This document shows, one piece after another, positions 34,282-56,064 of a stretch of 64,000 nucleotides of DNA. The notes under the pieces were generated by a model. The model was not told where the DNA came from. It worked only from the letters and a program-made list of their open reading frames with translations, and did no database searches. Source of the DNA: a virus. The first letter of the stretch is position 1; every line of letters starts with the position of its first letter. The stretch is taken from positions 1-64,000 of the IMG/VR virus record IMGVR_UViG_3300038463_000277, one strand, 5' to 3'. Both the position numbers and the translations under genes were made by a program.

Positions 34282-34494
34282 ATGGCAAAACTTCAAGGCA
34301 CACCGATTGCGCTACCCGGAATGGAACGGCACGAAGCGGAGCGCGCGGAAGTCGCAGGCGTCGAACTCGCGGCTGATCTGACCGCGAAGTTACTTCAACC
34401 TACCAACATCGAGGCGCGCGCGGGCGCGTTAGAGATGAACTCGCCGCTGTTTCGCGGCACGGATGCGAGCCCGCAGACGGAGTTATTCTCATGA
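34282..34494 (+). CDS. Small protein carrying an NSPLFRGT motif
   Basis: 70 residues. N-terminal part is helical and charged; the end reads AGALEMNSPLFRGTDASPQTELF. A very close segment (about 18 of 23 residues) is found at residues 847-869 of the 1393-residue polyvalent protein (51883-56064). The motif may be a targeting or interaction peptide shared between an early protein and an injected virion protein. Role otherwise unknown. Its start lies behind promoter cassette 4. Confidence 0.6.
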   Translation: MAKLQGTPIALPGMERHEAERAEVAGVELAADLTAKLLQPTNIEARAGALEMNSPLFRGTDASPQTELFS

Positions 34495-34736
34495 GCGTTC
34501 GATTGGTTGTGATGAACGGCTCGTATCCGATGGAAGTACACGCCGAAGGGTGCCGCGACATGAATATGCCGAAGTACCGAAGCGCGCCGAAAGACTGGAT
34601 TCTGACGGGCGACTCAGTGCAAGCGGTCATTGACGCCGAGGCGGAAGAACTCAATTCGCAGTTCGACCGGCCTTACAGCACTGACGAATTGTTTCGCGTC
34701 ATGCCGTGCGCGGAGAAACTGCGGGGGGCGAAATGA
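34491..34736 (+). CDS. Small unknown early protein
   Basis: 81 residues, one beta-hairpin-like start (VRLVVMNGSYPMEVHAEGC) and an acidic helical end. ATG overlaps the previous stop as ATGA. Function unknown. Confidence 0.55.
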   Translation: MSVRLVVMNGSYPMEVHAEGCRDMNMPKYRSAPKDWILTGDSVQAVIDAEAEELNSQFDRPYSTDELFRVMPCAEKLRGAK

Positions 34737-34755
34737 CACCGGGCGCACGGCGTTT

Positions 34756-34787
34756 CATAATTACCCCATAATTATAGGGTAATTATG
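34756..34787. promoter_or_regulatory. Perfect 11-bp inverted repeat after the early operon
   Basis: 34756-34766 and 34777-34787 are exact inverted repeats (CATAATTACCC/GGGTAATTATG) with a 10-bp AT-rich centre. No T tract follows, so an operator, origin-type or protein-binding palindrome fits better than a terminator. Confidence 0.5.
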
Positions 34788-34890
34788 GATTGGTGTATCA
34801 GACGCCCGACATGGCGGAAGTATGGTATAAATATAGAAGTTTTGATGTTTGAAGTCCAAGATTGGCCGTCTGTAGCTACGCGGCCAACGT

Positions 34891-34962
34891 GGTGGAGGTA
34901 GTCGGAGTTGAACCGACAGGCGGAAGTTCTCAAGGCTCTCACCTGCAACCGTGCTACCCCCA
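34891..34962 (-). tRNA. tRNA-like element with encoded CCA, D arm not formed
   Basis: Minus strand, 72 nt. The 7-bp acceptor (34962-34956 with 34901-34895, one GU), discriminator A, CCA (34893-34891) and a perfect T arm (5-bp stem, TTCAACT loop) are clear. Only 37 nt lie between, forming one 27-nt hairpin (AGGTG...CGCCT) with a TTGAGAA-type loop and no D arm. It may be an armless tRNA, a tmRNA-like mimic or an att remnant. A 7-bp hairpin follows on its 3' side (34863-34887). Confidence 0.4.
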
Positions 34963-35007
34963 GAACGATACGGGACTGACACTGACGCCCTGTCGCAATC
35001 AGGGTTC

Positions 35008-35139
35008 TTAGTTTAGAGGCTTTCCTTGCTGGGATTCTCTAGACTCAGAAGCTTCCCGAACCTCGCGCGATGCGCCTACAACGAAATCTTGAATCACGGG
35101 GGCCATCTCTGCTAGGATGTCCCCATATTTTCCTTTCAC
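35008..35139 (-). CDS. Possible short leftward peptide gene
   Basis: 43 residues from GTG 35139 (MKGKYGDILAEMAPV..., ending QQGKPLN). Composition looks natural but ribosome site is weak. It lies upstream of the tRNA-like element on the same strand. May be a small regulatory peptide or a chance frame. Confidence 0.3.
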   Translation of the reverse strand: MKGKYGDILAEMAPVIQDFVVGASREVREASESRESQQGKPLN

Positions 35140-35161
35140 AGTTGTTCGTTCCGGTTCGAGT

Positions 35162-35200
35162 AAAGGCTCGGCGTTCCGTACCCGGCGCTGAGCCTTTTTA
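35162..35200. terminator. Bidirectional terminator
   Basis: AAAGGCTC (35162-35169) pairs with GAGCCTTT (35190-35197), extended by a GC stem with one mismatch, and has A-run before and T-run after, so it can end transcription in both directions. Confidence 0.65.
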
Positions 35201-35217
35201 GTTGGGGGCCGCCCGCA

Positions 35218-35535
35218 ATGATTCACTGGTTTGGCAATAGCTGGGGCTCGGCACTGAATGACGATTGCCCGCAGGCGCGGACGCCGGTAGGCTGGCCTTG
35301 CACGCACTGCGATGAGCCTATCGCCGAGGGCGATCAAGGCATCATCTACAGTAACGCCCCGGTCGCGCATCTCGACTGCTTCATACGCGGCACGATTGGA
35401 AGCGTCGCGCACCAATTGAAAACCTGCTCGTGTTTCTTCCCCGGCGCAACCGAGGGCGACCCGCCCGAACTCTCGCGACGCGAAGCCGCCCGGCTCGCGG
35501 TCGAACTCTGGGAGAAAGCGAACCCGCAACGGTGA
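35218..35535 (+). CDS. Cys/His treble-clef-type protein
   Basis: 105 residues. CTHCDEPI near 28, HLDCFIRG near 51 and CSC near 70 suggest a zinc fold of the kind found in many small phage proteins. Start 18 bp after the bidirectional terminator without an obvious promoter. Function unknown. Confidence 0.6.
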   Translation: MIHWFGNSWGSALNDDCPQARTPVGWPCTHCDEPIAEGDQGIIYSNAPVAHLDCFIRGTIGSVAHQLKTCSCFFPGATEGDPPELSRREAARLAVELWEKANPQR

Positions 35536-35798
35536 CCGAATCAAGTTACGATCTTGTACACGTGAACGTGCTGCCGGAAACGCGGCGCGCGCTCGAACGC
35601 TACGCCGAGAAGCATGGCTATGACGAATGGGTCCGGCGCTGGAGTGAGCCGCAATGGCTCGCTTGGCTGATCGCGCTACTGCAAGAGGAGCCCGATTCGC
35701 CCGAACTCTTCCCCCATGGCAAATGGGCCACGATTCAGCACATGCGAACCCTGCTCGCCGAGGCTGCGCGCGCCGAAGTGAAGAACCGCGCGACATGA
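35532..35798 (+). CDS. Small Trp-rich helical protein
   Basis: 88 residues from GTG 35532 (overlaps the TGA of the previous gene as GTGA). Begins LVHVNVLPETRRALERYAEKHGYDEW; helical. Function unknown. Confidence 0.55.
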   Translation: MTESSYDLVHVNVLPETRRALERYAEKHGYDEWVRRWSEPQWLAWLIALLQEEPDSPELFPHGKWATIQHMRTLLAEAARAEVKNRAT

Positions 35799-35959
35799 GC
35801 GTTTACTGGGAAGCGTTTCGCCCGCTGGCGTTCATGATGGCTTGGTCTGTGTGGTGTGGCATCCTGTCGCACGTTTTCCGGCAATCCAAGCAGGCGGACC
35901 TCGCCGCGACGTTCTTAGGGTTGGCCCTCTACCTAGTCGCCGACAACATGCCGCACTGA
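35795..35959 (+). CDS. Small membrane protein
   Basis: 54 residues from ATG 35795 (ATGA overlap). Two hydrophobic stretches (LAFMMAWSVWCGILSHVF and AATFLGLALYLVADN). Possibly a two-span holin-like or membrane-modulating protein; not recognised. Confidence 0.5.
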   Translation: MSVYWEAFRPLAFMMAWSVWCGILSHVFRQSKQADLAATFLGLALYLVADNMPH

Positions 35960-36027
35960 CAGGGTTGCCCTGTGTCTGGTGCAGAACAAATTAGTTCTTG
36001 ACACGGTACGTCAACGTACATTACATT
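35959..36027 (+). promoter_or_regulatory. Rightward promoter of the recombination operon with palindromic operator
   Basis: Palindrome ACAGGGttgCCCTGT (35959-35973), GTCTGGT, an AT-rich run, GTTCTTGACACGG with TTGACA at 35998-36003 and TACATT at 36022-36027 (18-nt spacer). Order and key words match the leftward promoter at 22713-22780. A further CAGGGGAACCCTC overlaps the ribosome site before ATG 36121. Confidence 0.65.
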
Positions 36028-36120
36028 CTGTTTCTCCAACGCATACTCTACCCCGCTGGGTCGCCCAAAACAGGCAGAACGCGCTGAGATGTTCCACGGC
36101 TGTTTCTCAGGGGAACCCTC

Positions 36121-37212
36121 ATGGCGGCTTCATCGCATTTTCCCATTGTTGAGAGTCTACCCCCCTCGCACGAAATCCGACACACCTTCATCGGCGGCAG
36201 CGAAGCCTATGAATTGCTCAACGAAAAGCAGTACGGCAAGGGCTGTGTGCGCGCGCTCGGCTATCGCAAGAGTCAAGTGCCCGAAGACTTCGAAGAGCGC
36301 GCAGCGCGCGGCGTGACGCTCGCGGGCATCTTCCGGCGCGGGCATTTGCTTGAAGACATCATCGCGAAACTGTACATGGAAGACACGGGGCGCTCGCTCA
36401 TCCGGCGCGAGCGCATCATCCACGCGCGTGACTATCCCGGCGCGGCGGTTCACACAGATCGCATTATCTTGAGTGACGCGCTCGCGAACCGTCCGACCGG
36501 CGACGCGGAATTAAAGAGCCATGGGGAAGGCCCGTTCCTCGGCATCCTGCGCAATGGGTTACCCCCCGGCCACAATCTACAGCTTCAATGGAGCCTGTTC
36601 TGTACCGGGCACACGTGGGGCGCGTTTATCATCCTCGGCGTTTTCGGCGAGCTGCCGCTAAAGCATTTCGATGTAGCCCGCGACGAAGAGGTAATCGACA
36701 TCTTCAAGCGCGAGACGGATAAATTCTGGAGCACACTCGCGCGCGGCGAGCTACCCCCGCCACCGTTCCCCGCAGACGATGTGCGTTGCAAGGTTTGCCC
36801 ATGGCGCTTGACGTGTCGCGGAGAGAGCGAACTCGATCACGAAGAGCTGCAACGGCTGCGCGCGGAGCGCGATAACAAGACGCCATTGCGCACCGTACAA
36901 GACGAAGAGCTTGGCGACCTACTGCTTAACCGCGCGCTCATCCAATCGGAAATCGCGGCGCTCGACTCGGACAAAGAAGACGACCCCGGCGCGCTGCAAC
37001 TCGTGACCGAGCGCATTAAGGAACTCATGGGCGACACCGAGGCGGCGCTAGTCAATGGGCAATGGCGCGTGTACTCGCAGCCGAATTTCTGGAGCGGCGT
37101 CGATCAGCAAAAGCTCAGAGTCGAAGCCCCCGAAGTTTACAAAAAGTTTTTTGTGCGACGCGCGACCGGCAAGAAGCGGTTGCAGGTTCACCCGGTAAAG
37201 CGGGCGCAATGA
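36121..37212 (+). CDS. Cas4/AddB-like PD-(D/E)XK exonuclease
   Basis: 363 residues. PD-(D/E)XK features are Glu79 region (GHLLEDIIAKLY), HTDRI (Asp113) and AELKS (Glu130, Lys132). Cys42 in GKGCVRALGY and C-terminal Cys223, Cys226, Cys232 (CKVCPWRLTC) match the four ligands of a Cas4/AddB-type iron-sulfur cluster. It likely resects double-stranded DNA ends for the RecT annealase encoded 0.8 kb downstream. Start supported by AGGGGA 7 nt upstream. Confidence 0.8.
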   Translation: MAASSHFPIVESLPPSHEIRHTFIGGSEAYELLNEKQYGKGCVRALGYRKSQVPEDFEERAARGVTLAGIFRRGHLLEDIIAKLYMEDTGRSLIRRERIIHARDYPGAAVHTDRIILSDALANRPTGDAELKSHGEGPFLGILRNGLPPGHNLQLQWSLFCTGHTWGAFIILGVFGELPLKHFDVARDEEVIDIFKRETDKFWSTLARGELPPPPFPADDVRCKVCPWRLTCRGESELDHEELQRLRAERDNKTPLRTVQDEELGDLLLNRALIQSEIAALDSDKEDDPGALQLVTERIKELMGDTEAALVNGQWRVYSQPNFWSGVDQQKLRVEAPEVYKKFFVRRATGKKRLQVHPVKRAQ

Positions 37213-37481
37213 AACTGCTCACGCAAAAACTCGATAGCGGCGTGATGGCGCGCTGTGATGCGCGCTGCTACGACGCGAAGGCGGGCGGGCATTGCGACTG
37301 CGTTTGTGGCGGGCGGAATCACGGCGTCGGGCTCGCGAAGGCGCTCGCGAACATAGTCGCCATGGTACGGGACAACAATTTGAAAGGCACCACGATACGA
37401 GTCACACGGGCCGCCGAGCGGGCGATAGAACGCCGCGACCAGACAGAGAAACGAGAGGAGAACTTTCAAAATGCCGACTGA
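37209..37481 (+). CDS. Small Cys-rich protein
   Basis: 90 residues from ATG 37209 (ATGA overlap). CDARC near 16-20 and HCDCVCGG near 28-35 may bind zinc; the end is a basic helix. Function unknown. It overlaps the HNH gene by 11 bases. Confidence 0.55.
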   Translation: MKLLTQKLDSGVMARCDARCYDAKAGGHCDCVCGGRNHGVGLAKALANIVAMVRDNNLKGTTIRVTRAAERAIERRDQTEKREENFQNAD

Positions 37482-37983
37482 CCACATGTGCGAATGCGGA
37501 TGCGGGACGGAACTGCGAGCCAACTATCGCGGTCACTTCTATGCGTTCGCCCGTGGGCATCGCATCACGAAGCGCAAACCAATCGAGGAGCTACAGCGAA
37601 CGCACATCTGCAACGGCTATGTCATGGAACGCGCTCCGGGGCACCCGCACGCGAATCGAGACGGGTTTGTTGGACAGCATATTCTCGTCGCGGAAAAGGC
37701 GCTCGGCTACTACTTGCCGGACGGTGCCGAGGTCCATCACTGGAACTTAAACCGCAGCAACAACGCGAATAGCAATCTCTTGGTTTGCCCGAGCAAAGCC
37801 TACCACTTGCTGATTCACCGCAGGATGGAAGCGAGAGCAGCCTGCGGCAATCCGAATTTCAGAAAGTGCTACATCTGCAAAAAGTGGGACGACGAGAGCG
37901 CCTTGTACATTCGCGCGCGCACGGCCTACCACACCGAATGTCACCGCATTTATCAGGCACAACGAAAGGCTATCGCCGCGTGA
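37471..37983 (+). CDS. HNH endonuclease-type protein
   Basis: 170 residues. N-terminal zinc-type CECGC, then HNH motif: EVHHWNLNRSNNANSNL (86-103) with His89/His90 and Asn pairs, followed by HLLIHRR; a second Cys set (CYIC near 133-136) ends the protein. It resembles phage HNH proteins that nick DNA or act as homing endonucleases. It sits between exonuclease and RecT genes with no intron signs, so it may be a free-standing homing endonuclease or a recombination enzyme. Confidence 0.75.
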   Translation: MPTDHMCECGCGTELRANYRGHFYAFARGHRITKRKPIEELQRTHICNGYVMERAPGHPHANRDGFVGQHILVAEKALGYYLPDGAEVHHWNLNRSNNANSNLLVCPSKAYHLLIHRRMEARAACGNPNFRKCYICKKWDDESALYIRARTAYHTECHRIYQAQRKAIAA

Positions 37984-37988
37984 AAACC

Positions 37989-39134
37989 ATGACAGAAGAA
38001 ATCGCAAAAACACCGGGACGGGGCGCGGATCGCCTCGCCCAATCGTCGTTTCCGCAGATGCTCCAAAACTTCAAGAGCGAGATTGCGCGCGCGCTGCCGC
38101 GACACTTGAACCCTGACCGCATGTGCCGCATCGCGCTTACCGAATTCCGCAAGAATCCGAAGCTCGCCGACTGCGACCCCCGGAGCGTCTTTGCGGCCAT
38201 CATCATCGCGTCGCAACTTGGACTAGAGCCGGGCGTGCTCGGACAGTGTTACCTGATTCCGTTCAAGCGTGAGTGTCAGCTCATCGTCGGGTATCAAGGG
38301 CTCGTCGATCTGGTTCGGCGCTCGGGGTTCGTGAGTCGCATCGAGGCGCATGTCGTGCATGAGCGCGACCAGTTCACCTACAAGACCGGGCTCAGCACCG
38401 TGCTCGAACATGAGCCGACCTTGGAAGGCGATCCCGGCAAGCCGCGCCTTGTGTACGCCGTCGCCGAATTCAAGTCGGGCGGCTATCACGTCGAGGTCAT
38501 GACCGAGGAGCAAATCAACCGCATCCGCGACCGCTCGCAGGCCGTCATCAACGCGAAGAACTACGGGAAGTCAACGCCGTGGGACACGGACACAGATGAA
38601 ATGTGGCGCAAGACTGTGTTGCGGCGCATCTGCAAGTTTCTGCCGAAGTCGCCGGAGATTGCGACCGCCATCGCACTCGATGAAGCGAGCGAGCAGGGGC
38701 GGCAGGCTATCGGCGTACAAGATGCGATTGACAACACGTGGCAAGCGCCCGTTCTCGAAGTCACTACCACGCAGGATGACAGGCTCGCGGGCAAGAGCGC
38801 GGCGAATCTCGAAGCGGTGAAGGAGCGCCACCAACTCGAAGCGCAGCCGGAAGACAACACGCGACCGCTCACGCCCCTCGAAGCGAACGAGGCGAGCGCG
38901 CGGCGCAAAGAACTTGAAGCGCAGGCGGAGCGCGTCAAACAATCTCGGGCAGTCCAGCAGTCCCCGCAGTCGGAACCGCAACCCGTCGCGCCTGTTGAGG
39001 CAGGGGGCGAGACGCCCCCGCCCGAGGAGTATCAGCTCAGCGACCCGCTCGAACTAGAGCCGGTCGAAACCACAACCGAACACGCGAGCCCGGCACTCGA
39101 TTTCGACGGCCCGGCGAAGAAGACACGGAGATGA
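37989..39134 (+). CDS. recT: RecT-type single-strand annealing protein
   Basis: 381 residues from ATG 37989 (an in-frame GTG at 37980 overlaps the previous TGA and could also start it). RecT features: HLNPDRMCRIALTEFRKNPKLADCDPRSVFAAIIIASQLGLEPG, QCYLIPFKRECQLIVGYQGLVDLVRRSG, and EMWRKTVLRRICKFLPKSPEIATAI. The last 120 residues are Glu/Pro-rich and disordered. It anneals complementary strands during recombination with the upstream exonuclease. Confidence 0.9.
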   Translation: MTEEIAKTPGRGADRLAQSSFPQMLQNFKSEIARALPRHLNPDRMCRIALTEFRKNPKLADCDPRSVFAAIIIASQLGLEPGVLGQCYLIPFKRECQLIVGYQGLVDLVRRSGFVSRIEAHVVHERDQFTYKTGLSTVLEHEPTLEGDPGKPRLVYAVAEFKSGGYHVEVMTEEQINRIRDRSQAVINAKNYGKSTPWDTDTDEMWRKTVLRRICKFLPKSPEIATAIALDEASEQGRQAIGVQDAIDNTWQAPVLEVTTTQDDRLAGKSAANLEAVKERHQLEAQPEDNTRPLTPLEANEASARRKELEAQAERVKQSRAVQQSPQSEPQPVAPVEAGGETPPPEEYQLSDPLELEPVETTTEHASPALDFDGPAKKTRR

Positions 39135-39331
39135 CGCATGGGACACATGGACGACGGGACGGAAGAGCCGACGCACAAACGGTCAAAATCTTTTGGCCGC
39201 ACGCCGGGATGCCGGAGCACTATCGCGGCTGCACGAACTTGGACACCGACGTGAACGAATTGACGTTCACCGACTCGGCGGGCAAGCAACATCAAGTTTT
39301 CGGGCTACCTTACGAAGTTTTGGAAGAGTGA
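39131..39331 (+). CDS. Small unknown protein
   Basis: 66 residues, ATG overlapping the recT stop (ATGA). End LDTDVNELTFTDSAGKQHQVFGLP looks coding; the first 15 residues are compositionally odd, and another ATG at 39138 opens a different frame that also reads naturally for ~20 residues. Start uncertain. Confidence 0.45.
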   Translation: MTHGTHGRRDGRADAQTVKIFWPHAGMPEHYRGCTNLDTDVNELTFTDSAGKQHQVFGLPYEVLEE

Positions 39332-39375
39332 CCGCGTTTACCCCGTTCCAACCGGCAAAGGGGAAGCGGATGGAG

Positions 39376-39436
39376 ACCGGGGCAAACCCGGTGCAACGTG
39401 GCTGCACGCTGGCCACGGCACCGGGAGCTAAGTTCC
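39376..39436 (+). ncRNA. RNA element with two mutually exclusive hairpins before xre
   Basis: CCCGGTG (39387-39393) can pair with CACCGGG (39419-39425), enclosing CGTGGC/GCCACG (39397-39402 with 39412-39417), or its first six bases can pair with the earlier ACCGGG (39376-39381). This alternative-pairing layout is typical of a regulatory leader. It lies about 25-85 nt before the Xre gene start, in an otherwise gene-free 129 bp. Confidence 0.4.
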
Positions 39437-39460
39437 CCAACATCAATCAAGGGATGAATA

Positions 39461-39739
39461 GTGAAAAAGAAAGTGCGAGAGGCGCTGAGTATCGCAGCGC
39501 GCGGACGACGCCGGAAGCCGGGACCGCCCGACGCGCTCGGACGTTTCGGGCCTTACCTCAAAGAACGACGGAGAGCAAAGAAGCTGTCTATCCGGGCGCT
39601 CGCGAAGCGCGCGGAGATGGCGCACACGAACATCTTTCAATTCGAGCGGCTGGGAAAAAATCCCCGACTCACCGAATTGGTCGCCCTAGCGGGAGCGTTC
39701 AAGGAACCCCTCTTGACGTTCATGCAACCGCTTGGCTAA
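39461..39739 (+). CDS. Xre/CI-type HTH regulator
   Basis: 92 residues from GTG 39461 with AAGGGA 7 nt upstream. Basic N-terminus, then HTH_3-like domain LKERRRAKKLSIRALAKRAEMAHTNIFQFERLGKNP (residues 33-68). No C-terminal peptidase domain, so unlike full CI. Likely binds operators near early promoters; might be a lysogeny or transition regulator. Confidence 0.7.
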   Translation: MKKKVREALSIAARGRRRKPGPPDALGRFGPYLKERRRAKKLSIRALAKRAEMAHTNIFQFERLGKNPRLTELVALAGAFKEPLLTFMQPLG

Positions 39740-39750
39740 CCACACCCCGA

Positions 39751-39793
39751 CCACGGAGAGAGTTTCTAGCTTCCCGCTTTTCTCTCTCCGTGG
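39751..39793. terminator. 12-bp hairpin after xre
   Basis: 39751-39762 pairs perfectly with 39782-39793 (19-nt loop). No T tract on the plus strand follows, so it may be a weak terminator, RNase III site or protein-binding structure. Confidence 0.45.
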
Positions 39794-39816
39794 GGCGGCG
39801 GAACTGAGGCACACAC

Positions 39817-40404
39817 ATGGGACGCATTCGGCTACCCAAGGGGCAAACGCCGGACGACACGGCGGCGGGGCAACGCATTCAGGCAACCGCCACGCTGCAC
39901 AACCGTGAAATGAATCGCACGGAACGCAAGTATGCCGACCATCTGCGCGAGCGGCTCATGATCGGCGAGATTCGATGGTGGGAGTACGAGGCTTGGAAGT
40001 TCCGCCTCGCGGACAACACGTATTACACGCCCGATTTCATCGTCGTCACGAACGATATGCGGATTGAGGCGCACGAGGTCAAAGCGTACTGGCCGGGGCG
40101 CGACGGCAAGCTCGGTAAGACGGGATGGACGGACGACGCCCGCGTAAAGATCAAAGTCGCGGCGGAAGAGCATCCCGTGCGTTTCATCGCGGTCACGCTC
40201 ATGCCAGATCAGCAATGGCACATTGAGCAGTTTCAGAAAGACACGGAAGAGACACCGGCACTCGAAACCGAGAGCCGTCAGCAAGAGCTGCGGCAGATCG
40301 CGGACGCGCTACACATGCCGGACGGCATGGTCAACGTGGATGGCATCGTGCGCGCCATCGCGGAACTCGATGCGGCGGCGCACACCACTAGCAGGGGAAT
40401 GTGA
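39817..40404 (+). CDS. PD-(D/E)XK endonuclease-like protein (DUF1064-like)
   Basis: 195 residues. NRTERKYADHLRERLMIGEIRWWEYEAWKFRL, then TYYTPDFIVV and IEAHEVKAYW give the E...PD...ExK layout of DUF1064/Holliday-junction-like nucleases. Likely resolves or trims recombination intermediates. Start ATG 39817. The last 60 residues are charged and variable. Confidence 0.65.
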   Translation: MGRIRLPKGQTPDDTAAGQRIQATATLHNREMNRTERKYADHLRERLMIGEIRWWEYEAWKFRLADNTYYTPDFIVVTNDMRIEAHEVKAYWPGRDGKLGKTGWTDDARVKIKVAAEEHPVRFIAVTLMPDQQWHIEQFQKDTEETPALETESRQQELRQIADALHMPDGMVNVDGIVRAIAELDAAAHTTSRGM

Positions 40405-40414
40405 GAGGAACCCA

Positions 40415-40807
40415 ATGGAAGCGAATGTACCGCGTCAGGAACTAAGCCTCTTTGACATTTGCCGGGGAGCCGTGCCGGAAGTTTTCGCGCGCGAGCTGGC
40501 GGAAGTGTTGGAGAACATTGCGGACGTGAATACCTCGGCGAGCGGCAAGCGGCGCATCGTGCTCACCTTCGAATTTACGCCCTACCCGGATCGCTCGGCG
40601 TTCTCGTGCTCGCTGCAATGCAAGAGCGGGCTCGCGTCGGTCGAGGCTATCGACGGCATCGGCTACCTCGTCAAGACGGGCGGCAAGATCACGGCCTACT
40701 CGAAAGACATCCGGCAGCAATCGCTCTGGGATAAGGACGACGACGCAACGGCGAAGGACGGCAAGAGCGCCGGGGCCGGGGACAAGGTTGTAGGGATTGG
40801 ATCATGA
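40415..40807 (+). CDS. Unknown 130-residue recombination-operon protein
   Basis: 130 residues from ATG 40415. KRRIVLTFEFTPYPDRSAFSCSLQCKSGLASVEAI suggests a beta-rich core; Asp/Lys-rich end. No family recognised; seen in similar place in related-looking phage operons, between nuclease and small membrane genes. Confidence 0.55.
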   Translation: MEANVPRQELSLFDICRGAVPEVFARELAEVLENIADVNTSASGKRRIVLTFEFTPYPDRSAFSCSLQCKSGLASVEAIDGIGYLVKTGGKITAYSKDIRQQSLWDKDDDATAKDGKSAGAGDKVVGIGS

Positions 40808-40896
40808 GGACGGCGGAAGGCGTCATCTGGTTCCTGCTCGTCATCCTGTGCGCGGGCACCGTATTGGTTGCCTGCATTCTTGCGACGCAGCCATGA
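40804..40896 (+). CDS. Tiny single-span membrane peptide
   Basis: 30 residues; ATG overlaps previous stop (ATGA). EGVIWFLLVILCAGTVLVAC is a hydrophobic segment. Its own stop overlaps the next ATG. Function unknown. Confidence 0.45.
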   Translation: MRTAEGVIWFLLVILCAGTVLVACILATQP

Positions 40897-41162
40897 GCAT
40901 TGGCTTACATGACGCGCTGTTGCTCGCGGTCGATGTACTGCGGGAAGACCAAAGCAATTGGCGCACTTGTTGCGTAGTCGCTACGTACCAAGAGCGCAAG
41001 CAGGCTGCCGACGTGCTGCGCATGTTCCTCGGCAGGAAACGCCGAGAGTCCAAACTTTCAATGCGGAAAATCCGCGAGGAGAAGAAAAATGGCAACAAAA
41101 AACCTGTTCGAGTACGCGATTCTTCATCAGCCAAAAGCCACGCGCGACGCGCAAGGCAATGA
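40893..41162 (+). CDS. Small basic helical protein
   Basis: 89 residues from ATG 40893. ALLLAVDVLREDQSNWRTCC then a very basic tail rich in Lys/Arg. It overlaps the next gene (41089) by 74 bases in another frame, so the last 25 residues may be unimportant. Function unknown. Confidence 0.45.
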   Translation: MSIGLHDALLLAVDVLREDQSNWRTCCVVATYQERKQAADVLRMFLGRKRRESKLSMRKIREEKKNGNKKPVRVRDSSSAKSHARRARQ

Positions 41163-41310
41163 CACCACACCCGACACCACGATTCTGAAACCGATCACGC
41201 CGGTACTCGCGGCCTGCGAGAACGACGTGAAGATTCTCGCGGCGCGCGCCATCGACGAAAAGCATTTGCAGCACCTTGATGAAGTGGTCATCATCGTCCG
41301 CCCTTTATAG
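41089..41310 (+). CDS. Small alpha/beta protein
   Basis: 73 residues: FEYAILHQPKATRDAQGNDTTPDTTILKPITPVLAACENDVKILAARAI. GGAGAAGA ribosome site. The pattern resembles small phage proteins of unknown role. Confidence 0.55.
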   Translation: MATKNLFEYAILHQPKATRDAQGNDTTPDTTILKPITPVLAACENDVKILAARAIDEKHLQHLDEVVIIVRPL

Positions 41311-41318
41311 CCCCCGGC

Positions 41319-44244: not shown

Positions 44245-44718
44245 ATGGCTATGGGCGATCAAGGGAATCTGTTCGAGGAGCGGATGCCGGTAAGGTTTGC
44301 GGTGCGCGTGTCGGTGCCAAGGCTGTCGGTGCCAAGGCGCGAGCCGCCGCAAACTAGCCGAGCTATCGACATTCAGCGCCCCTTGCCGCGCGAGGCGCAC
44401 AAAGCTATCGCCGAGGGTATGGCGATGGCCGATGCTGGCGCGAACGAGCTTTGGAAGGCGGCCTTCCGCACCCTGATCCTCGACGTTGCTCATCGCATGG
44501 ATTTCTTCACGGTTGACGATTTGCTCGACGAAGCGGACGCGCATCCCCTGCCAGCAAACACGGGCAACCTGTCAGCGATAGGCCCGTTGGTGCGCGAAGC
44601 CGTGCGCAACGGCGTCATCGTTTTCACCGGCAGAGTGCAACGCTCCCGGCGAGCCGTCAAACATGGGATTACTCACCGAATTTGGCAATCTCAAGTTCGA
44701 GGGAAGGCAGCGGCGTGA
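44245..44718 (+). CDS. Winged-helix-like phage protein
   Basis: 157 residues. GANELWKAAFRTLILDVAHRMDFFTVDDLLDEADAHPLPANTGNLSAIGPLVREAVRNGVIVFTG (about 65-130) fits a winged helix of the type seen in many phage early proteins; the end KHGITHRIWQS is a conserved-looking tail. May regulate or take part in replication; function not known. Confidence 0.55.
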   Translation: MAMGDQGNLFEERMPVRFAVRVSVPRLSVPRREPPQTSRAIDIQRPLPREAHKAIAEGMAMADAGANELWKAAFRTLILDVAHRMDFFTVDDLLDEADAHPLPANTGNLSAIGPLVREAVRNGVIVFTGRVQRSRRAVKHGITHRIWQSQVRGKAAA

Positions 44719-49202: not shown

Positions 49203-49203
49203 T

Positions 49204-49425
49204 TCAATTTTCCTCGAACTTCGCGATGAACTCGCGCATAGTCGCAATCATGCCCTCGCGCTCGGCGGAAGAGATGTAGAAAAGTTCCTTGCCCTTGTAG
49301 GAGAACACGAGTACGGTGAAGCCGAAGCCGTCGGGCATGGACTCTTTGAGCGTCCGCCCGATTTCTCGGAGCTTCTTCTCGGCGGCTTCGTTGCGAACTT
49401 CGTAGCGCATGGGATCGTTTGCCAT
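49204..49425 (-). CDS. Small conserved phage-type protein
   Basis: 73 residues: RYEVRNEAAEKKLREIGRTLKESMPDGFGFTVLVFSYKGKELFYISSAERE. A small alpha/beta protein of a type common in phages, function unknown. It is the first gene of the leftward run 46921-49425. Confidence 0.6.
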   Translation of the reverse strand: MANDPMRYEVRNEAAEKKLREIGRTLKESMPDGFGFTVLVFSYKGKELFYISSAEREGMIATMREFIAKFEEN

Positions 49426-49506
49426 CCGGGGATTTTACTCCCGTTCCTATCCGGGCACAACGGTGTTAGTATGTCGTTCGGGCCAGAGTTACACCCTCTT
49501 GTTTTT

Positions 49507-49902
49507 ATGGCTTGGATTGGGCAGTACATTCTCGATGAGAACGGCGACGCGCAGCCGGAGCCGGACACGTTTCGGTGGGGGCGCTGGTTCGAACACTCGC
49601 ACGAATCCACGGGCAAAGATAACCGCATCGTGCGGCGGGATGAGGTTGGCGACATTAGCGTCTCGACCGTGTTCCTCGGGCTCGATCACGCTTACACCCT
49701 CGACGCGCACGAGCCGGTGCTTTGGGAGACGATGATTTTCGGCGGGGCGCACGATCAGTACCAGCGGCGCTACACGAGCCGCCGCGATGCCGTGGCGGGG
49801 CACATGGAAGCATTGAAGCTCATCGAGGCGTGGGCGCTCGACATCGACGAACTCAATCGGATGCTCGCGCTCGAACCGGCGTGGGTGCGGAAGGTGCAAT
49901 GA
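49507..49902 (+). CDS. Small conserved phage-type protein
   Basis: 131 residues from ATG 49507 (an upstream start at 49471 is possible). DEVGDISVSTVFLGLDHAYTLDAHEPVLWETMIFGGAHDQYQRRYTSRRDA is a pattern I have seen in many phage hypotheticals. Preceded by an ACACCCTCT motif like those in the early promoters. Function unknown. Confidence 0.6.
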   Translation: MAWIGQYILDENGDAQPEPDTFRWGRWFEHSHESTGKDNRIVRRDEVGDISVSTVFLGLDHAYTLDAHEPVLWETMIFGGAHDQYQRRYTSRRDAVAGHMEALKLIEAWALDIDELNRMLALEPAWVRKVQ

Positions 49903-50051
49903 CCGTAAGACAGTTCGTTTTGCGCTTTAACGATGACGCATTTCGCACGGCGATGCGGCGACTGCTCGCGCTCGTGCGCCGGGCGTGGTACGGGCCTGAC
50001 TTTCGGACCCGTCGCCGTCGCTGCCGCGAGCTGAAACGCCGCAAGAGATAG
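49899..50051 (+). CDS. Small basic peptide
   Basis: 50 residues, ATG overlapping the previous stop. Very basic Arg-rich end. May bind nucleic acid. Function unknown. About 115 bp upstream of the next gene contain a possible TTTACA promoter (50090). Confidence 0.45.
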   Translation: MTVRQFVLRFNDDAFRTAMRRLLALVRRAWYGPDFRTRRRRCRELKRRKR

Positions 50052-50168
50052 CACATTATTACCATTGTGTTTCACTAAGAACAGGTTTACAAACGCTTAA
50101 CACATCCGGTAGGTAGTTTCTCGGGCCTCGCTGTAAACTTTCCAACATTTATCAAGGAACCCCTTTTT

Positions 50169-50441
50169 ATGGTCAAGGATGTCCCGCGTCCATCTGTCAA
50201 GCAGCTAAAAACATTCAAGCTCACCCTCACTCAGTACGACATTTTGGAGCTACTCAAAAAGACTCGCCGCCCCATGTTGCCGGGTGAGGGCCGCACCATT
50301 AACCGCGCCGTCGAAGACCTCTTAGAGCGCCGCCTGCTGACCCGCTGGCCGGAAGATGCCGACGAGGTTCGCCTGACGAAAGCCGGGCGGGCCGTGGCTC
50401 TTGCCGTGGTGACTGCGGTAACGTCAAGGGGTAAACCCTAG
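50169..50441 (+). CDS. Winged-helix regulator
   Basis: 90 residues. TLTQYDILELLKKTRRPMLPGEGRTINRAVEDLLERRLLTRWPEDADEVRLTKAGRAV fits a compact winged helix. Likely a transcription regulator. Starts after a plausible promoter region; the end is followed by a hairpin. Confidence 0.6.
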   Translation: MVKDVPRPSVKQLKTFKLTLTQYDILELLKKTRRPMLPGEGRTINRAVEDLLERRLLTRWPEDADEVRLTKAGRAVALAVVTAVTSRGKP

Positions 50442-50469
50442 AGTGCATGGTGACAATTTTTGGCCTTGT

Positions 50470-50500
50470 GTTCCTGACTAGGAACGCGCTATTTTTGTTT
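50470..50500 (+). terminator. Short hairpin with T tract after winged-helix gene
   Basis: GTTCC (50470-50474) pairs with GGAAC (50481-50485); TTTTTGTTT follows at 50492-50500. May terminate the upstream unit or be an operator, since AGGAAC also appears next to early promoters. Confidence 0.45.
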
Positions 50501-50563
50501 CTAGTCTGTCCCATTCGCACGCTAGGAATTCCCCAAATGGGCTAAACCGATAGGAGCCCAACA

Positions 50564-51055
50564 ATGTCACTAGGCCAAAAGCAAGCGCTGGAAGTGTTAG
50601 AAAGGGAGCTTAAACAAATACGCGAGGAAAATCGCCTTGAAGAGCAAAGCCTCGAAGAGACCATCAACGCGCTGCGCCGGAACATGGAGAAAACGGAGCA
50701 GTCCAAAAAGAAGAGGAGAGATTTGACTGTCAAGAAAGGCGGCTGGGTAGGTATGGCCGCCCCGGATGCAATTCACGCCTACCTTGCGCAAGCGGATGGC
50801 CCGGTCTCGTTTCTCGCGCTGGTCGATGCGCTAATAACGGGCGGGGTCGATCTAGGCACGGACCCGAAACGGTACGAGCGGAACGTGCGCTCGACGCTCG
50901 GGAACACTCGCGACCGCTTTCTTTATGATCCTGAAAAAGAGATGGTGGATTTATTGCCGTCGTCGGGATTGTTGAAACGTGCGAAGGCGAAGCGCGAGGC
51001 GAAAACGAAGGCTAGAAAAGCAGAAAAGAAAGCGCACAAAGAAGCAACCGCTTAA
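50564..51055 (+). CDS. Coiled coil plus HARE-HTH-like domain protein
   Basis: 163 residues. N-terminal coiled coil (10-50); a winged HARE-HTH-type domain about 62-128 (DAIHAYLAQADGPVSFLALVDALITGG then NVRSTLGNTRDRFLYD); Lys/Glu-rich tail. Probably binds DNA, perhaps modified DNA, as proposed for HARE-HTH domains. Ends in convergence with the leftward gene at 51052. Confidence 0.6.
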   Translation: MSLGQKQALEVLERELKQIREENRLEEQSLEETINALRRNMEKTEQSKKKRRDLTVKKGGWVGMAAPDAIHAYLAQADGPVSFLALVDALITGGVDLGTDPKRYERNVRSTLGNTRDRFLYDPEKEMVDLLPSSGLLKRAKAKREAKTKARKAEKKAHKEATA

Positions 51056-51432
51056 CCCCCGCCAAAGAACGCCTTCGAAGGATCGGGCGCGCCGGGCGCT
51101 AGAAGGCTCTTACGATACTGCGGCAGCAATCCCCCTGCTGGCCCGCCCCGGCCCGCCCCATAAGGATTCAAAGGTGTCTGCCCCATAGCTGGCGGCGGTG
51201 CCTGTCCCGTACCGAGCGAAGTTGAGCCGATAGCGCCGCCGAGCTTTGGCAGCGGCGCGATGGGCTGCATCGGCGTGGCAGCCTGAGCCGGTTGCATGGG
51301 CGTCGGGGCGCTTAGAGCAGTGCCCGGCAGCAAGGGCGATGCGGTCGGCCCCTGCGCGGCGCTGACGCCGTTTGACTGTGCGCCGCCGATGCCACTTGGT
51401 GCTGCGAAAGTCTTTGCTGAATTCGCGCCCAT
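51052..51432 (-). CDS. Pro/Gly/Ala-rich virion-type protein
   Basis: 126 residues, low complexity with MQPIAP/MQPAQA repeats. Starts ATG 51432 right after the TAA of the upstream gene. Similar to proteins at 9314-9931 and 58061-58543; probably a minor virion protein. Confidence 0.5.
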   Translation of the reverse strand: MGANSAKTFAAPSGIGGAQSNGVSAAQGPTASPLLPGTALSAPTPMQPAQAATPMQPIAPLPKLGGAIGSTSLGTGQAPPPAMGQTPLNPYGAGRGGPAGGLLPQYRKSLLAPGAPDPSKAFFGGG

Positions 51433-51606
51433 TTATTTTCCTTTTTCACGCCGGTAGATAAGCCCTAATTTGTACGCCACGGGATCAGCGGCACGCTTCG
51501 CGTCATCCTCCCGCGCGAACTTCAAGGCGCGCGTGACTCTAGCCCAACCCTCGGGCGTGAGCTGCTCGAAAGGCTTTTTCTGGGACTCGGTTGATTGTTT
51601 CTCCAT
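51433..51606 (-). CDS. Small charged protein
   Basis: 57 residues from ATG 51606 (MEKQSTESQKKPFEQ...). TPEGWARVTRALKFAREDDAKRAA helix, basic end. TAA directly before the ATG of the next gene. Upstream 51609-51624 holds a GTTCT...AGAAC palindrome with CACCCT centre. Function unknown. Confidence 0.5.
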   Translation of the reverse strand: MEKQSTESQKKPFEQLTPEGWARVTRALKFAREDDAKRAADPVAYKLGLIYRREKGK

Positions 51607-51716
51607 AAGTTCTCACCCTAGAACAAAACGCGCGCTTTTACAACGTCACAAAGTAACCGCGAGTAATGCCACTTTCGGGTGTGGTGAAAGCCCGCACGGC
51701 AACCTATATTCACAGC

Positions 51717-51929
51717 ATGATGATTCTCTTCGACTCATTCGACTTGAAGAACCTCCGCGAGTTTGCCTGTCCGATATGCTTCGAGCCGAGCCCGGTCACG
51801 CTCGGCGAAAAGTGGCAAGTGTGCCCGCAGTTCCATTTCACGAAGACGAAGACGATTTGCCCAACCGACCGAACGATTGACCCTAATAGTGCCCCTTCTC
51901 GCCTTCCTTCACCGCATCCGCATCAATGA
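51717..51929 (+). CDS. Possible Cys-containing rightward protein
   Basis: 70 residues. CPICFEPSPVTLGEKWQVCPQFHF suggests a zinc site; the rest is less convincing. It overlaps the end of the large leftward gene by 47 bases and stands alone in this direction, so it may be a chance frame. Confidence 0.3.
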   Translation: MMILFDSFDLKNLREFACPICFEPSPVTLGEKWQVCPQFHFTKTKTICPTDRTIDPNSAPSRLPSPHPHQ

Positions 51930-54900
51930 CAATCACTCGTCCATCGGGCAGCCTGCCCAAGTTATAGGTCGCGGCATCCCAGCTTAAACCCTGAGCGTCG
52001 AGTTTTTTGGTCATCGCGATGGAGTCTGCCTCGGTGATGCCCGAAGTGTCTACCCACGGGTAAATTCCGACATGCACTTTCTTGCTTGCGCCCTGAATCA
52101 CTTCTGTTTTGATCGGCGCAATCACGTCGGGACTCTTGATTGTGCTCGGGGGCTCATCGCTGACTCGCATCACGTTGCCGTTCTTCAAGTCGAACACTAC
52201 AGCCTTAGTGCCGCTGTTCAAGTACGAGATGGGCTCGGTACTGTTCTCCGCCGCGAACTTGCGAATGCTCGACATCGTTTGCGGCCCGGTGGGGATGGTG
52301 TTGTTAACGTGGTAATTGAAGTCGGCGCTTTCATCGTCCGACATGGGGCGAGGTTCGTGAGCCGCTGGAGCTGGAGCCGTGGCTCCGGGCGCGGGCTCTC
52401 CTCCTTCGGGAGCTTGTCCAAGTTCTTTGCCGATGGCGGCGCGAATCTGCGGGTAGATTTCCTTAAAAACTCCATCGAGCTTCTCGCCCTGCGTAACGCG
52501 CTTGCCCGCGTCTTCTAGGATTGAGCCCACGGGGCCAGATTTGTACTGCACTCGGTTGAAGTGTTCCGCGAGTTGCTGCGCGCCCGCCGCTTGCTGCGCG
52601 GATTCGTTCATGTCAACGATGTTCTTGCCACGGGCGAGAGCCGCTTGCCGCGATGCGTCCGCCTTCGAGATGAACTGCAAAGCGGAAGTTTCTCCACGGA
52701 GCGCGCCGTCGATCTTCGAAGCGAGGCGGCCCGTTGCGACCGCGTTCGATACCGAGTCTTCTTGGTCGCCGAAGAGCCCTTGTGTGGTGGTCGCGGTGTT
52801 GCCCTGCTCCTTGATGCGCAAAGCCTGCTGCTGTAGGTCCGCCGCCGAGAGGCGATGCGAGGTTGCCATCTGCGCGAGCGCGGCCTGCTGCTTCGGATCG
52901 TCGAGACCTCCAACCGCGACGGCTTTGTTCTCGTCAATCTCACCCGAGCGATACTTGTCCCACATCGCATCGGAGAGATTGGAGAGGGCGGAGCCTTTCT
53001 TTATTACGTCGCCCGTCAGATTGATGCCGCGAGCCGCGAGCGCGCCGGTCGTTGTGCCGGTCTGCCGCAGATAGCTCGCAGCGTCGAACGGTGTCGCATT
53101 CCCCGCCTCTAGATTTTTCTCCGCTCCAAAGCGTTTCGCTTCGGCGGCGTTTGCAAAATCATGAAACCGCGCTTCGATTTCCGGCGTGCCCGTCGCGACG
53201 GCGTGATTGTAACGATGATGCCCATCGACGACTTTGACCTTGTTGTCGGCTGGATCGCGCCAAACGTCTATCGGCCCGGCCTTGTCCTGATCCCATGGCG
53301 CGCCTTCGGGTATAGTCGGGCGCGGCATCTGCCGCCATTGGAAAGTCGCGGGGTCAGCGGTCAGGTCTTTGGTCTGCACCATGCGCACTGCCGAGGGGCG
53401 GCCCATGGTCTCGCCGTCGGGTTTGGTCGCGGCGGGTTCGGACTCTGGCGAACCGCCAAACATTTCGTTCTGCGGGCTCGCGCCGGTTCCACGGAAGAGC
53501 GGCGAATTTGACTCCATCGCGCCCGCTGCGCGCTCGATGTTGCCTTTGGGTTGAGCGAGGTCGGCGGTCATGCTCGCGCCAGCTTCGGCGCTGCGCACGG
53601 TCGCACGTTCGGCTACGTGGTTTTCCATGCCCGGCAGTGATGGCTCTGAGGTAGCACCCTGCGGCTCTCTCACCATATAGCCGAGCGCCGGATCGGTGCC
53701 GGGCTCGGGAACGAAGCCGTGTTGCCCGTACCATTTGACTAAATTGTCTTTCCCTAACCGCGTTGCTTCATCGCCATAGGGGGACGCCGTTAGCTCCATG
53801 GTCACGCCGTGCTTGTCCGCGATGTCGGTGATAGACCGAAGTGCGGAATTCCCCGCGCCGGTGCCGGGCTTTAAGGTTTGGATTCCTTTCAGCCGTAGCC
53901 TGCCATCGTTTTCGGCGACGGTAAAGGTCGCGTTCGGCCCGTCCTTGCCCATCGAAGCATATTCTTTCGGATTGGTGCCCGCGCCCGGATTGTTGGGGTT
54001 GACGGGGAACTGCTTGTCGATTTCCTGTAACGCTCCATGGACTCCGGTCGCCGTTGGCTCGGGAGTGGCCGCTGCCGGGGCTGGCGGGGCCGCTGGGGCG
54101 CTCGCTGGCGGTGGCGTGGTCTGAGGGGTGCCCTCTGTGAGCTGGCGAGGCTTCGAACGCCCTGCCTCCCATGGCATGACGGGGCGGGTTTGGGCTGGGA
54201 TCGTGGCCGGGCCTGCCGGAATCGGACCTCTTTCGGTCGGTACATACTGTTGGCTGTCCATGAGCTGCCGGGGGACGACTCCAGAGACCGGGTTGTGTTG
54301 TGGCGCGGCGTATTGGCCTGCGGGCAACGCGCCCTTGATGGTCGGCGGCGGGGCCGTCGCTTCCGGCATGTACTGGCCTTCGTGAACTTCGTTTGGCAGC
54401 ATGAGGCGCGACGGAACGGGAATGGGCGATGCGCCTGCGGGTCTAGCACCGGGCGCGGCGGCGGCATTGACGGCGCTTGTCGCGCTCGTGGCCGAGGTCG
54501 CGGGGAGCTGCGGCGGTACTGGCCTCGGCGCGGCGGTTGCCTGCGGCCCCGGCCCTCCGGCGAGAGGCGGCCCTTCCGGCATCGCGTTTGCGGCGCGCTG
54601 CGCGAGCATGTCAGGCGCGTTGAAATACTTGTGAATTTGGCTCGCCGCAATCGACCCGACGCCGCCCAAAGCTGCGAGGGGATGCCCGGCCATGAGCGCG
54701 GCGAGAGCTTCGCCGCCGCCGCCTAGCAAAGTTAGTTGCTGTTGGAGAGTCGAGCCTTGGTGACGCGCGTTTACCACGGCGCGCTTGTCGAAGACTTTTT
54801 GAATCTGCTTGAGCGCGCCGTACTGCTGGCGCAACCCGGTCGGATCAGTCTCGCCGTTGGCGGTGAGCTTATCGTCGATGGCAGTGCGCAAACCCGCTGC

Positions 54901-56064
54901 CGCGTCTTCCATTGCCGAGATGCTGCCGCTCGTCATGCCTGCGGCGTGCTGCATGTCGGGCGTCATTCTGTAATAGCCCTTTAGTTCCGCGTTGAGCGTT
55001 TGCAGATAGTCGCTCGCTTTCGCGATGGTGATAGGGCCGTCGAACTTGCTGGCGAAGTCAGTTGCCCGCTGCGCTTTTTCAGGGAAGAGGTCTCTCATCC
55101 CATCCGTGACACCGGAGCGAATTTTGTCGCCGATGGGTGAGCCGTCGATAACTGCCGTCGCGTTGCGGTCGATCTGCGGTTGATAGAACTGTTTATAGAG
55201 CCTGTCAGCGGCTTCGTGTGCGCCGTCCGCCATGTTCTCCGCGCTCTTGATCGGCTTAATTTTGTTTTGCTCGGCGATGCGCGGCCCCGCCGTATCTACC
55301 GCGTCAGAAAATCCACGGTCGAGGACGGACGGCCCTCCGGCCTTGTTCATTAACTCTTGACCTGAAAGCCCGATGCCCGTCGCGTTCTTCCCTGCATTCA
55401 AGACGGCCTTCGTGCCTGCCGTTGCGCCTTTCACTACGCCGCCGCCGACGGTATCGACTACGGAGTTAGTAACCCCCTCGCCCGTCTTTGTGCCGAGCCC
55501 GAGCATCGCCAATTGCGCCGATGCCGAGCCTAAGCCGTGCGCGATCTGTTCCGGGTCGCCCGACTTGATACCCTGACCAACTTCCTCGCCTGCTCCAACC
55601 GTCGCGGGTCCGAGGAGCGGGATCGCCGCGCCGACCGCATGAACGACGCCGCTAAATTTATTGGCTAGACCCTCACTCCGTAGCTCTTGCTGACCCTTTT
55701 CGAAAAGCGCGTTCTGCGAGTCGTACATCGAGCCGCCGACTAACTTCGCCGATTCGACCGGATGTTTGATGATGTTCCACAAGCCGGGGACGCCCGTGAA
55801 GTCTGAGGCGTGCGAGGTCTCGGGCAATCCAGCGCCACTTGCCGCACCTAACATTCCCTCGCGCAATACTCCGCCGACCTTTTGGTCAACGGTGCGCGGG
55901 GTTGCCGGTGTCGCCACAACTGGCGGCGGACCCGTAGTAACCGGCTTACCCCCTAGATCGGAGAAGTCAATCGGGCCGGGTGCTGGCGCGGGCGGCGGCG
56001 GACCAACCGGCTTGCCCCCTAGATCGGAGAAGTCAATCGGTTGAGTACCAGAGTTACTTGCCAT
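51883..56064 (-). CDS. Large polyvalent (injected) protein with GNAT-like, ParB-like and kinase-like parts
   Basis: 1393 residues. Two N-terminal IDFSDLGGKPV repeats (10-20 and 32-42); an Ala/Gly helical part (150-240); a Pro/Ala linker (500-670); a GNAT-like domain (675-800: LKPGTGAGNSALRSITDIADKHG, WYGQHGF); the NSPLFRGTGASPQNEMF motif (853-869); a ParB/Srx-like domain (895-1060: VDGHHRYNHA); and a C-terminal protein-kinase-like fold (about 1280-1385: LNSGTKAVVFDLKNGNVMRVSD, VIVIDADA). Such multi-domain proteins are known as phage polyvalent proteins, delivered with the DNA to counter host functions. Activity of each domain is not shown. Confidence 0.65.
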   Translation of the reverse strand: MASNSGTQPIDFSDLGGKPVGPPPPAPAPGPIDFSDLGGKPVTTGPPPVVATPATPRTVDQKVGGVLREGMLGAASGAGLPETSHASDFTGVPGLWNIIKHPVESAKLVGGSMYDSQNALFEKGQQELRSEGLANKFSGVVHAVGAAIPLLGPATVGAGEEVGQGIKSGDPEQIAHGLGSASAQLAMLGLGTKTGEGVTNSVVDTVGGGVVKGATAGTKAVLNAGKNATGIGLSGQELMNKAGGPSVLDRGFSDAVDTAGPRIAEQNKIKPIKSAENMADGAHEAADRLYKQFYQPQIDRNATAVIDGSPIGDKIRSGVTDGMRDLFPEKAQRATDFASKFDGPITIAKASDYLQTLNAELKGYYRMTPDMQHAAGMTSGSISAMEDAAAGLRTAIDDKLTANGETDPTGLRQQYGALKQIQKVFDKRAVVNARHQGSTLQQQLTLLGGGGEALAALMAGHPLAALGGVGSIAASQIHKYFNAPDMLAQRAANAMPEGPPLAGGPGPQATAAPRPVPPQLPATSATSATSAVNAAAAPGARPAGASPIPVPSRLMLPNEVHEGQYMPEATAPPPTIKGALPAGQYAAPQHNPVSGVVPRQLMDSQQYVPTERGPIPAGPATIPAQTRPVMPWEAGRSKPRQLTEGTPQTTPPPASAPAAPPAPAAATPEPTATGVHGALQEIDKQFPVNPNNPGAGTNPKEYASMGKDGPNATFTVAENDGRLRLKGIQTLKPGTGAGNSALRSITDIADKHGVTMELTASPYGDEATRLGKDNLVKWYGQHGFVPEPGTDPALGYMVREPQGATSEPSLPGMENHVAERATVRSAEAGASMTADLAQPKGNIERAAGAMESNSPLFRGTGASPQNEMFGGSPESEPAATKPDGETMGRPSAVRMVQTKDLTADPATFQWRQMPRPTIPEGAPWDQDKAGPIDVWRDPADNKVKVVDGHHRYNHAVATGTPEIEARFHDFANAAEAKRFGAEKNLEAGNATPFDAASYLRQTGTTTGALAARGINLTGDVIKKGSALSNLSDAMWDKYRSGEIDENKAVAVGGLDDPKQQAALAQMATSHRLSAADLQQQALRIKEQGNTATTTQGLFGDQEDSVSNAVATGRLASKIDGALRGETSALQFISKADASRQAALARGKNIVDMNESAQQAAGAQQLAEHFNRVQYKSGPVGSILEDAGKRVTQGEKLDGVFKEIYPQIRAAIGKELGQAPEGGEPAPGATAPAPAAHEPRPMSDDESADFNYHVNNTIPTGPQTMSSIRKFAAENSTEPISYLNSGTKAVVFDLKNGNVMRVSDEPPSTIKSPDVIAPIKTEVIQGASKKVHVGIYPWVDTSGITEADSIAMTKKLDAQGLSWDAATYNLGRLPDGRVIVIDADAVKEGEKGHY

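Follow-up and report, generated by a model that had tools for sequence, protein, structure and literature searches.

A module of about 60 residues shared by a small phage protein and a polyvalent protein, and its possible docking on the host sliding clamp

We analysed a window of 64,000 nucleotides (positions 1 to 64,000 of the IMG/VR virus record IMGVR_UViG_3300038463_000277) and report that a 70-residue protein encoded on its plus strand is, as judged from sequence, a free copy, with a nine-residue leader, of a module of about 60 residues that is embedded in a 1393-residue polyvalent protein encoded on the minus strand. The module recurs in other viral contigs and genomes, both inside large proteins and as solo open reading frames (ORFs), and it ends in a tail, mostly Qxx[LMI]F, that resembles the peptides with which bacterial proteins bind the beta sliding clamp (DnaN). 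We propose, at odds that we put slightly short of even, that the module docks phage proteins on the clamp of the host. The features on which the argument turns are the following.

34282-34494 (+): solo module gene, 70 residues, with AAAGGGGA, Shine-Dalgarno-like, shortly 5' of its ATG
34309-34491 (+): module in the solo protein (residues 10-70), from local alignment
34474-34488 (+): clamp-motif-like tail QTELF, one residue short of the solo C-terminus
51883-56064 (-): 1393-residue polyvalent protein, from Pfam, PHROGs, AlphaFold and fold search
53455-53640 (-): embedded module, residues 809-870, in a low-confidence linker between the GNAT-like and ParB-like domains
53458-53472 (-): clamp-motif-like tail QNEMF of the embedded module, residues 865-869
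53668-54027 (-): GNAT-acetyltransferase-like domain, about residues 680-799, from weak fold matches of the whole segment
52420-53397 (-): ParB/Noc-like domain, about residues 890-1215 (Noc 7nfu, E-value (E) 4.5e-8; ParB 7bnr, E 5.5e-7)

The initial annotation had drawn attention to two nearly identical peptides, one in each protein and on opposite strands. They start at residues 47 and 847, as it claimed, and their near-identity is real, but the 23 residues given to it were too few: the module covers about 60 residues and with them nearly all of the 70-residue protein. Solo residues 10-69 align with residues 809-869 of the large protein at a BLOSUM62 local score of 183, compared with a mean of 36.5 (standard deviation (sd) 4.8, maximum 59) in 1000 shuffles of the 70-residue protein, and a genome search gave 64% identity across solo residues 9-69. 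The whole record of 68,959 bases holds exactly two matches, the solo and the embedded copy. Over 61 codons the bases that differ between the two copies are distributed 17/16/36 across codon positions 1, 2 and 3, and the likeness has therefore been maintained at the level of the protein; 19 of the 41 changed codons are synonymous, and the nonsynonymous (dN) and synonymous (dS) divergences of 0.34 and 2.09, the latter saturated, give a dN/dS of about 0.16.

Scans of viral contigs and genomes with patterns and profiles gave 25 distinct modules above 30 bits, weaker matches being excluded. While 21 of them lie inside open frames of 912-3594 residues, several cut by the end of the locus and of polyvalent make-up wherever domains were recognised, four are solo ORFs, and all four stop 0-1 residues past the final motif, which places the tail at the C-terminus of each.

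Window, 34282-34494: solo of 70 residues
L065, 1671-2021: solo of 116 residues
L066, 5956-6174: solo of 72 residues, TTG start
L069, 5920-6180: solo of 86 residues

Each of the other module records searched whole contains exactly one copy (19/19, 2/2 and 8/8), and the window is the sole record found with both the solo and the embedded form, although many of the records may be fragments. The same caution holds for the L065, L066 and L069 records, which have a solo and no embedded copy. In G514, which carries the L069 solo, the solo stands beside a large ParB-bearing protein that is free of the module; the module is therefore found either in cis or in trans.

First scans of viral contigs returned no or one relative, and a degenerate pattern then picked up 11 modules and five unrelated frames among 16 stretches. 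Three module sequences gave no tblastn match in 50,697 phage records, one module sequence gave a lone match at E 4 in plasmids, and a PDB sequence search with the module profile returned nothing up to E 10. The genome scan matched two metagenome-assembled genomes of Acidobacteriota, Granulicella sp. (L040) and Acidobacteria bacterium (L041); a survey of 396 Acidobacteriota genomes, with at most 16 candidates scored per genome, gave a convincing match in the starting genome alone, and an overlapping survey of 101 closer relatives added one, G432. With no match in the phage records and two convincing genomes in these surveys, the motif of the initial annotation was not seen to be widespread in unrelated proteins across the sequences searched. 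Matches in G208, G236 and G477 were not counted as modules: they run from about position 1 to 39 of the model and have no tail, and the proteins may form a single family of peptidase type. None of the three records of L048-L050, which are DUF932/RecT relatives of the window and may be fragments, matched the module at E up to 10. From the two metagenome-assembled genomes that carry relatives of the module, the host of the phage may be a member of the Acidobacteriota.

Two further features bear on whether the 70-residue ORF is a gene.

34209-34237 (+): sigma-70-like promoter TAGACA-17-TACTAT upstream of the solo gene, 9/12 consensus; the promoter type of the host may differ
34491-34736 (+): 81-residue ORF, start overlapping the solo stop, without a PHROGs match

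Promoter-like sites number three in 33600-35300 versus 0.6 (sd 0.8) in shuffles, the solo stop overlaps the ATG of the next ORF (ATGA, 34491-34494), and the 70-residue protein has no Pfam or PHROGs match up to E 1. In simulations of neutral drift of the solo (5000 runs each), at least 39 of 61 residues and an open frame were kept in 0/5000 runs at half of the divergence, in 158 at a quarter, in 2013/5000 at 15% and in 2979/5000 at a tenth. The tree pairs the solo and embedded copies of the window (support 92/90, which is under the program's star) and gives the solo the longer branch, 0.51 vs 0.27. Because of the promoter-like site, AAAGGGGA, the ATGA overlap, the dN/dS, the drift simulations and the longer branch, we take the ORF to encode a real, selected protein. 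The region of the solo gene also holds DUF932, RecE-like and RecT genes and is on the strand opposite to the major capsid gene. Expression of the solo gene may be early.

The module ends AGxMExxSPLF...Qxx[LMI]F. Its first block is usually [LIF]PG[ML]E, with the exceptions LPTLE (L065) and FDGMK (L066), and is followed by a variable predicted helix, the block I..xxGxMExxSPLF and a tail that is mostly Q..[LMI]F; in L039 an insertion separates the LPGFE block from the rest. The invariant columns of a 19-row alignment are P12, G13, G48, E51, P55, L56, F57 and F69. The AlphaFold model of the solo from 19 rows (mean predicted local distance difference test (pLDDT) 66, predicted template-modelling score (pTM) 0.28) has helices at 15-38 and 43-52 and no compact fold, and its last ten residues have a pLDDT of about 53. 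The embedded module is a low-confidence stretch, with a pLDDT of about 30 at the tail; the low confidence at both tails suggests, without proving, disorder. The embedded module precedes the ParB domain in the window, L024 and L046 and follows it in L032, L035, L037, L041, L060, L064 and L068. The docking peptide that had been suggested thus stands in part: the element is conserved, has no predicted compact fold, is common to small and to large multidomain proteins, and turns up again with different neighbouring domains and, in three other phage records, as solo ORFs.

What might such a module dock on? Bacterial beta-clamp motifs are described as QL(S/D)LF or, more loosely, Q-aliphatic-x-[L/M]-[F/L], in which Q is important and not necessary (PMC9690074, PMC11139829) and position 2 is mostly aliphatic (PMC11139829). 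Among those given are the internal QADMF of DnaE, UmuC QLNLF and Pol II QLGLF (PMC11139829, PMC9690074, PMC3716654), the native DnaE peptide being listed as IGQADMFGV (PMC11139829, Table 1), and QxxLF in an unstructured loop is reported to have been used to predict clamp binding (PMC12926913). All 25 modules end in [LMI]F, and the pentapeptide begins with Q in 19, N in three, H in two and M in one. Among the 20 distinct tails, position 1 is Q in 14, N in three, H in two and M in one, positions 2 and 3 vary, position 4 is L, M or I (16, three and one) and position 5 is F throughout. Both window copies, QTELF and QNEMF, have Q at position 1 and, as LF and MF, the expected residues at positions 4 and 5.

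The most telling point for a clamp target, itself a likeness of sequence, comes from the polymerase DnaE. Fragments of Acidobacteriota DnaE read ASGQHGLFGMF (L075, from the genome of L040) and EQGQTGLFGLF (L073, from the genome of L041), while the modules of L060 and L062 end ASGQTGLFG, with GQTGLFG in common with the L073 DnaE. The L075 site aligns with GQLDLFG of 5fku and GQFDLFG of 7pu7; we take 5fku to be from E. coli and its GQLDLFG to be, probably, an engineered site. These DnaE fragments are also non-aliphatic at position 2 (H, T). Two further DnaE loci were uninformative, L074 being cut before the site and L076 having no Q..[LMI]F.

Similar C-termini occur beside some of the solos. Among 976 ATG-started frames of at least 60 residues in 22 loci, most of which are not genes, the pattern Q..(.)[LMI]F stands no more than eight residues from the C-terminus in five, namely the window and L065 solos, two frames near the L065 and L066 solos, and one L021 frame. 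QTIELF is near the C-terminus of the ORF directly before the L065 solo, and SPQLSLF near that of an ORF 1.7 kb ahead of the L066 solo; counting from an AAA+ ATPase (PF00004 E 3.6e-12, DNA_pol3_delta2 E 2.5e-8), the L065 solo is the third ORF downstream. The DNA_pol3_beta_3 clamp, found in 11/14 genomes as a positive control, was found in 0/11 phage records, which may be fragments and in which other clamp types were not searched, and the clamp of the host would therefore be the target.

Under the proposal, a single docking module of about 60 residues would serve two uses, in cis in the linker of polyvalent proteins and in trans as the 70-residue protein. The tail Qxx[LMI]F would bind host DnaN in the pocket into which the DnaE polymerase of the host docks, so that the cis copy would bring polyvalent enzymes to replicating DNA, and the free copy would fill the same pocket and slow or redirect host replication; alternatively, the free copy may recruit phage recombination or replication factors to the fork. 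Clamp binding and its effect on the host are what we infer from these likenesses. Rather doubtful, in our estimate, is the fuller picture in which a portable 60-residue module of Acidobacteriota phages imitates the clamp site of the host polymerase, serves injected acetyltransferase-, Zeta-kinase- and ParB-like effectors as an address label for the replication fork and, as a free early copy, takes over or blocks the clamp.

Several observations weigh against a clamp target. Position 2 is T and N in the window copies, and among the 20 distinct tails it is never L, I, V or M and only once A; because it is non-aliphatic in the window copies, we describe the tail as one that would work like a clamp motif and stop short of classing it among them. 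Six of the 25 modules lack the Q, including two of the four solos (HPTLF, HPSLF). The AGxME and SPLF blocks are conserved at least as well as the tail, and a clamp motif leaves both unexplained; they need another explanation, which could be a second contact or another partner. The solo model lays a low-confidence helix (64-69) over the tail, and chance copies of the pattern, QRAIF/QREIF, occur within the polymerase body of the L074 and L075 DnaE fragments. One enrichment that would favour the clamp is itself qualified: outside the module, 15 large proteins contain 13 Q..[LMI]F sites versus 4.1 (sd 2.0, maximum 11) in 300 shuffles, and the control spacing Q...[LMI]F is not raised (5 vs 4.2), but Q.[LMI]F (9 vs 4.0) and [LMI]FQ (13 vs 4.1) are raised too, and the 13 sites are partly dependent, some being homologous and two lying in the ParB tail, where LFG is invariant and Q is not. 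We give this enrichment little weight because other spacings of Q are raised and several sites are homologous.

Alternatively, the helix and the AGxME/SPLF blocks may make the contact, with a different partner of host or phage origin such as a recombination factor or RNA polymerase, and the Qxx[LMI]F ending would then be coincidental or secondary. We regard this as possible, if on the doubtful side. The invariant columns exclude the Q, as do the six tails without it, and RecT genes lie 3.3 kb from the window solo and 2.1 kb from the L069 solo, the L069 RecT being a match under the Pfam cut-off. Another partner would nonetheless leave unexplained a Qxx[LMI]F with a variable middle, its position at the C-terminus of four solos, the resemblance to Acidobacteriota DnaE and the clamp-like tails beside two solos, and the PG block is itself lost in the L065 and L066 solos.

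That the solo regulates the polyvalent protein or serves as its decoy, competing for the partner of the module and for instance protecting the cell from the polyvalent protein of an incoming phage, seems to us unlikely. The window does have both forms, and they are mutual nearest relatives, but a pure antagonist would lack a target of its own in L065, L066 and L069, where the records, possibly fragments, have no embedded copy, and the large ParB protein of G514 has no module. Rather improbable, too, is a role of the module as a signal for virion packaging or for ejection, by which polyvalent proteins would enter the capsid: embedded copies are in large proteins of the kind described as thought to be injected (PMC5512222), and in the window the 1393-residue protein and the major capsid protein are encoded on one strand, yet the solo gene is on the other strand among DUF932, RecE-like and RecT genes, the G514 ParB protein again has no module, and N-terminal tandem peptides (see below) look to us better candidates for a tag. 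A non-functional duplicate fragment of the polyvalent gene, as the short ORF without a Pfam or PHROGs match could suggest and as neutral drift would permit for a solo branch of only a tenth of the divergence, is very improbable given the dN/dS, the longer solo branch, the promoter-like site, Shine-Dalgarno-like sequence and ATGA overlap, and the similarly built solos of three other records.

The large protein qualifies as polyvalent in having at least two disparate domains, a ParB/Noc fold and a weakly supported GNAT-like fold. Residues 888-1174 match phrog_21 (labelled portal protein) at 1.2e-26 and also phrog_1033 and phrog_4715 (ParB-like), the HTH_ParB Pfam match is under the cut-off, and GHHR is conserved. 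The GNAT-like region has no Pfam match; its fold matches, both weak, are 6iuf AcrVA5 (E 0.011, TM score (TMt) 0.67) and human GCN5 (E 0.013), and placing them at about residues 680-799 is our reading of a match list that carries no model range. The anti-CRISPR AcrVA5, presumably an acetyltransferase, is the best acetyltransferase-type match, albeit weak. Disparate domains were likewise found in L024 (Zeta-toxin and ParB) and in L032 (2H and GGDEF, with an additional RelA/SpoT match under the cut-off). The large proteins of L021, L022, L026 and L029, four of the six related ones scanned, gave no Pfam domain and are called polyvalent because of their size and the shared module. The 1393-residue protein may be injected with the phage DNA; the analysis covered the strand and neighbourhood of its gene. 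The major capsid protein of the window (2476-3663, -) is of SU10 type (E 6.4e-21), and many of the other minus-strand window ORFs tested had no Pfam or PHROGs family match.

Some observations on these and neighbouring proteins stand apart from the argument. In the ParB-like tail, LFG is invariant in 11/11 rows (the window and ten relatives), lies between two predicted strands and sometimes follows Qxx (QVSLFG, QQTLFG, QENLFG, QGGLFG); we set it aside as a second clamp motif because the Q is correctly spaced in some rows only and predicted strands flank the LFG. Short N-terminal tandem peptides, differing in sequence, occur in the window 1393-residue protein (PIDFSDLGGKPV twice) and in L021 (FDPDAFH twice), L024, L022, L039 (DPYA[AT]YIASLKTKAPP, near-identical, twice), L060 and L037, and are possibly a packaging or ejection tag. 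Clamp-like pentapeptides or hexapeptides are also present in two window ORFs, QGNLF at residue 6 (44245-44718, +) and QELSLF at residue 72 of a putative gene (40223-40807, +), and a 106-residue ORF of L066 (3922-4242, +), with cysteine pairs and without a Pfam match, has QPRLF and QLSLF near its C-terminus.

Few phage proteins are as large or as poorly understood as the polyvalent proteins, and no rule is known to us by which they find their place in the cell. A conserved linker module that also occurs as a free protein would offer a direct handle on this, because it pairs a short peptide with one named candidate host protein. If the clamp is indeed that protein, a single pocket, already studied as a drug target, would tie together injected proteins, small takeover proteins and host replication. 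Among the literature matches listed, none concerned this module or a clamp motif in polyvalent proteins, which is a statement about those matches and not about what is in print.

With beta-clamp motifs the module tail shares Q first, L or M fourth and F fifth, and a site in a linker or at the C-terminus, and with Acidobacteriota DnaE the near-identical GQHGLFG/GQTGLFG; it differs from known motifs in its T or N, and mostly non-aliphatic residues in relatives, at position 2, in the replacement of Q in 6/25, and in riding on a 60-residue module with further conserved blocks. Like the polyvalent proteins described in PMC5512222, the carriers are large phage proteins with combined domains (GNAT-like with ParB-like in the window, Zeta with ParB in L024, 2H with GGDEF in L032), in contrast to the four of six that gave no Pfam domain; the main text of that paper, which named the class, contains neither 'LPG' nor 'sliding clamp' in a term search. 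Phage Twort gp168, compared here by description only, is a clamp inhibitor reported to bind the DNA channel of the clamp (PMC11139829) and not the peptide pocket, and resembles what we propose for the module in being a phage protein that acts on the host sliding clamp. SocB, also compared by description, is the toxin of a Caulobacter toxin-antitoxin system and so of a different setting, but it is reported to block replication elongation via a clamp-binding motif (PMC9690074), and it is in this use of such a motif to hit replication that the free copy of the module may resemble it.

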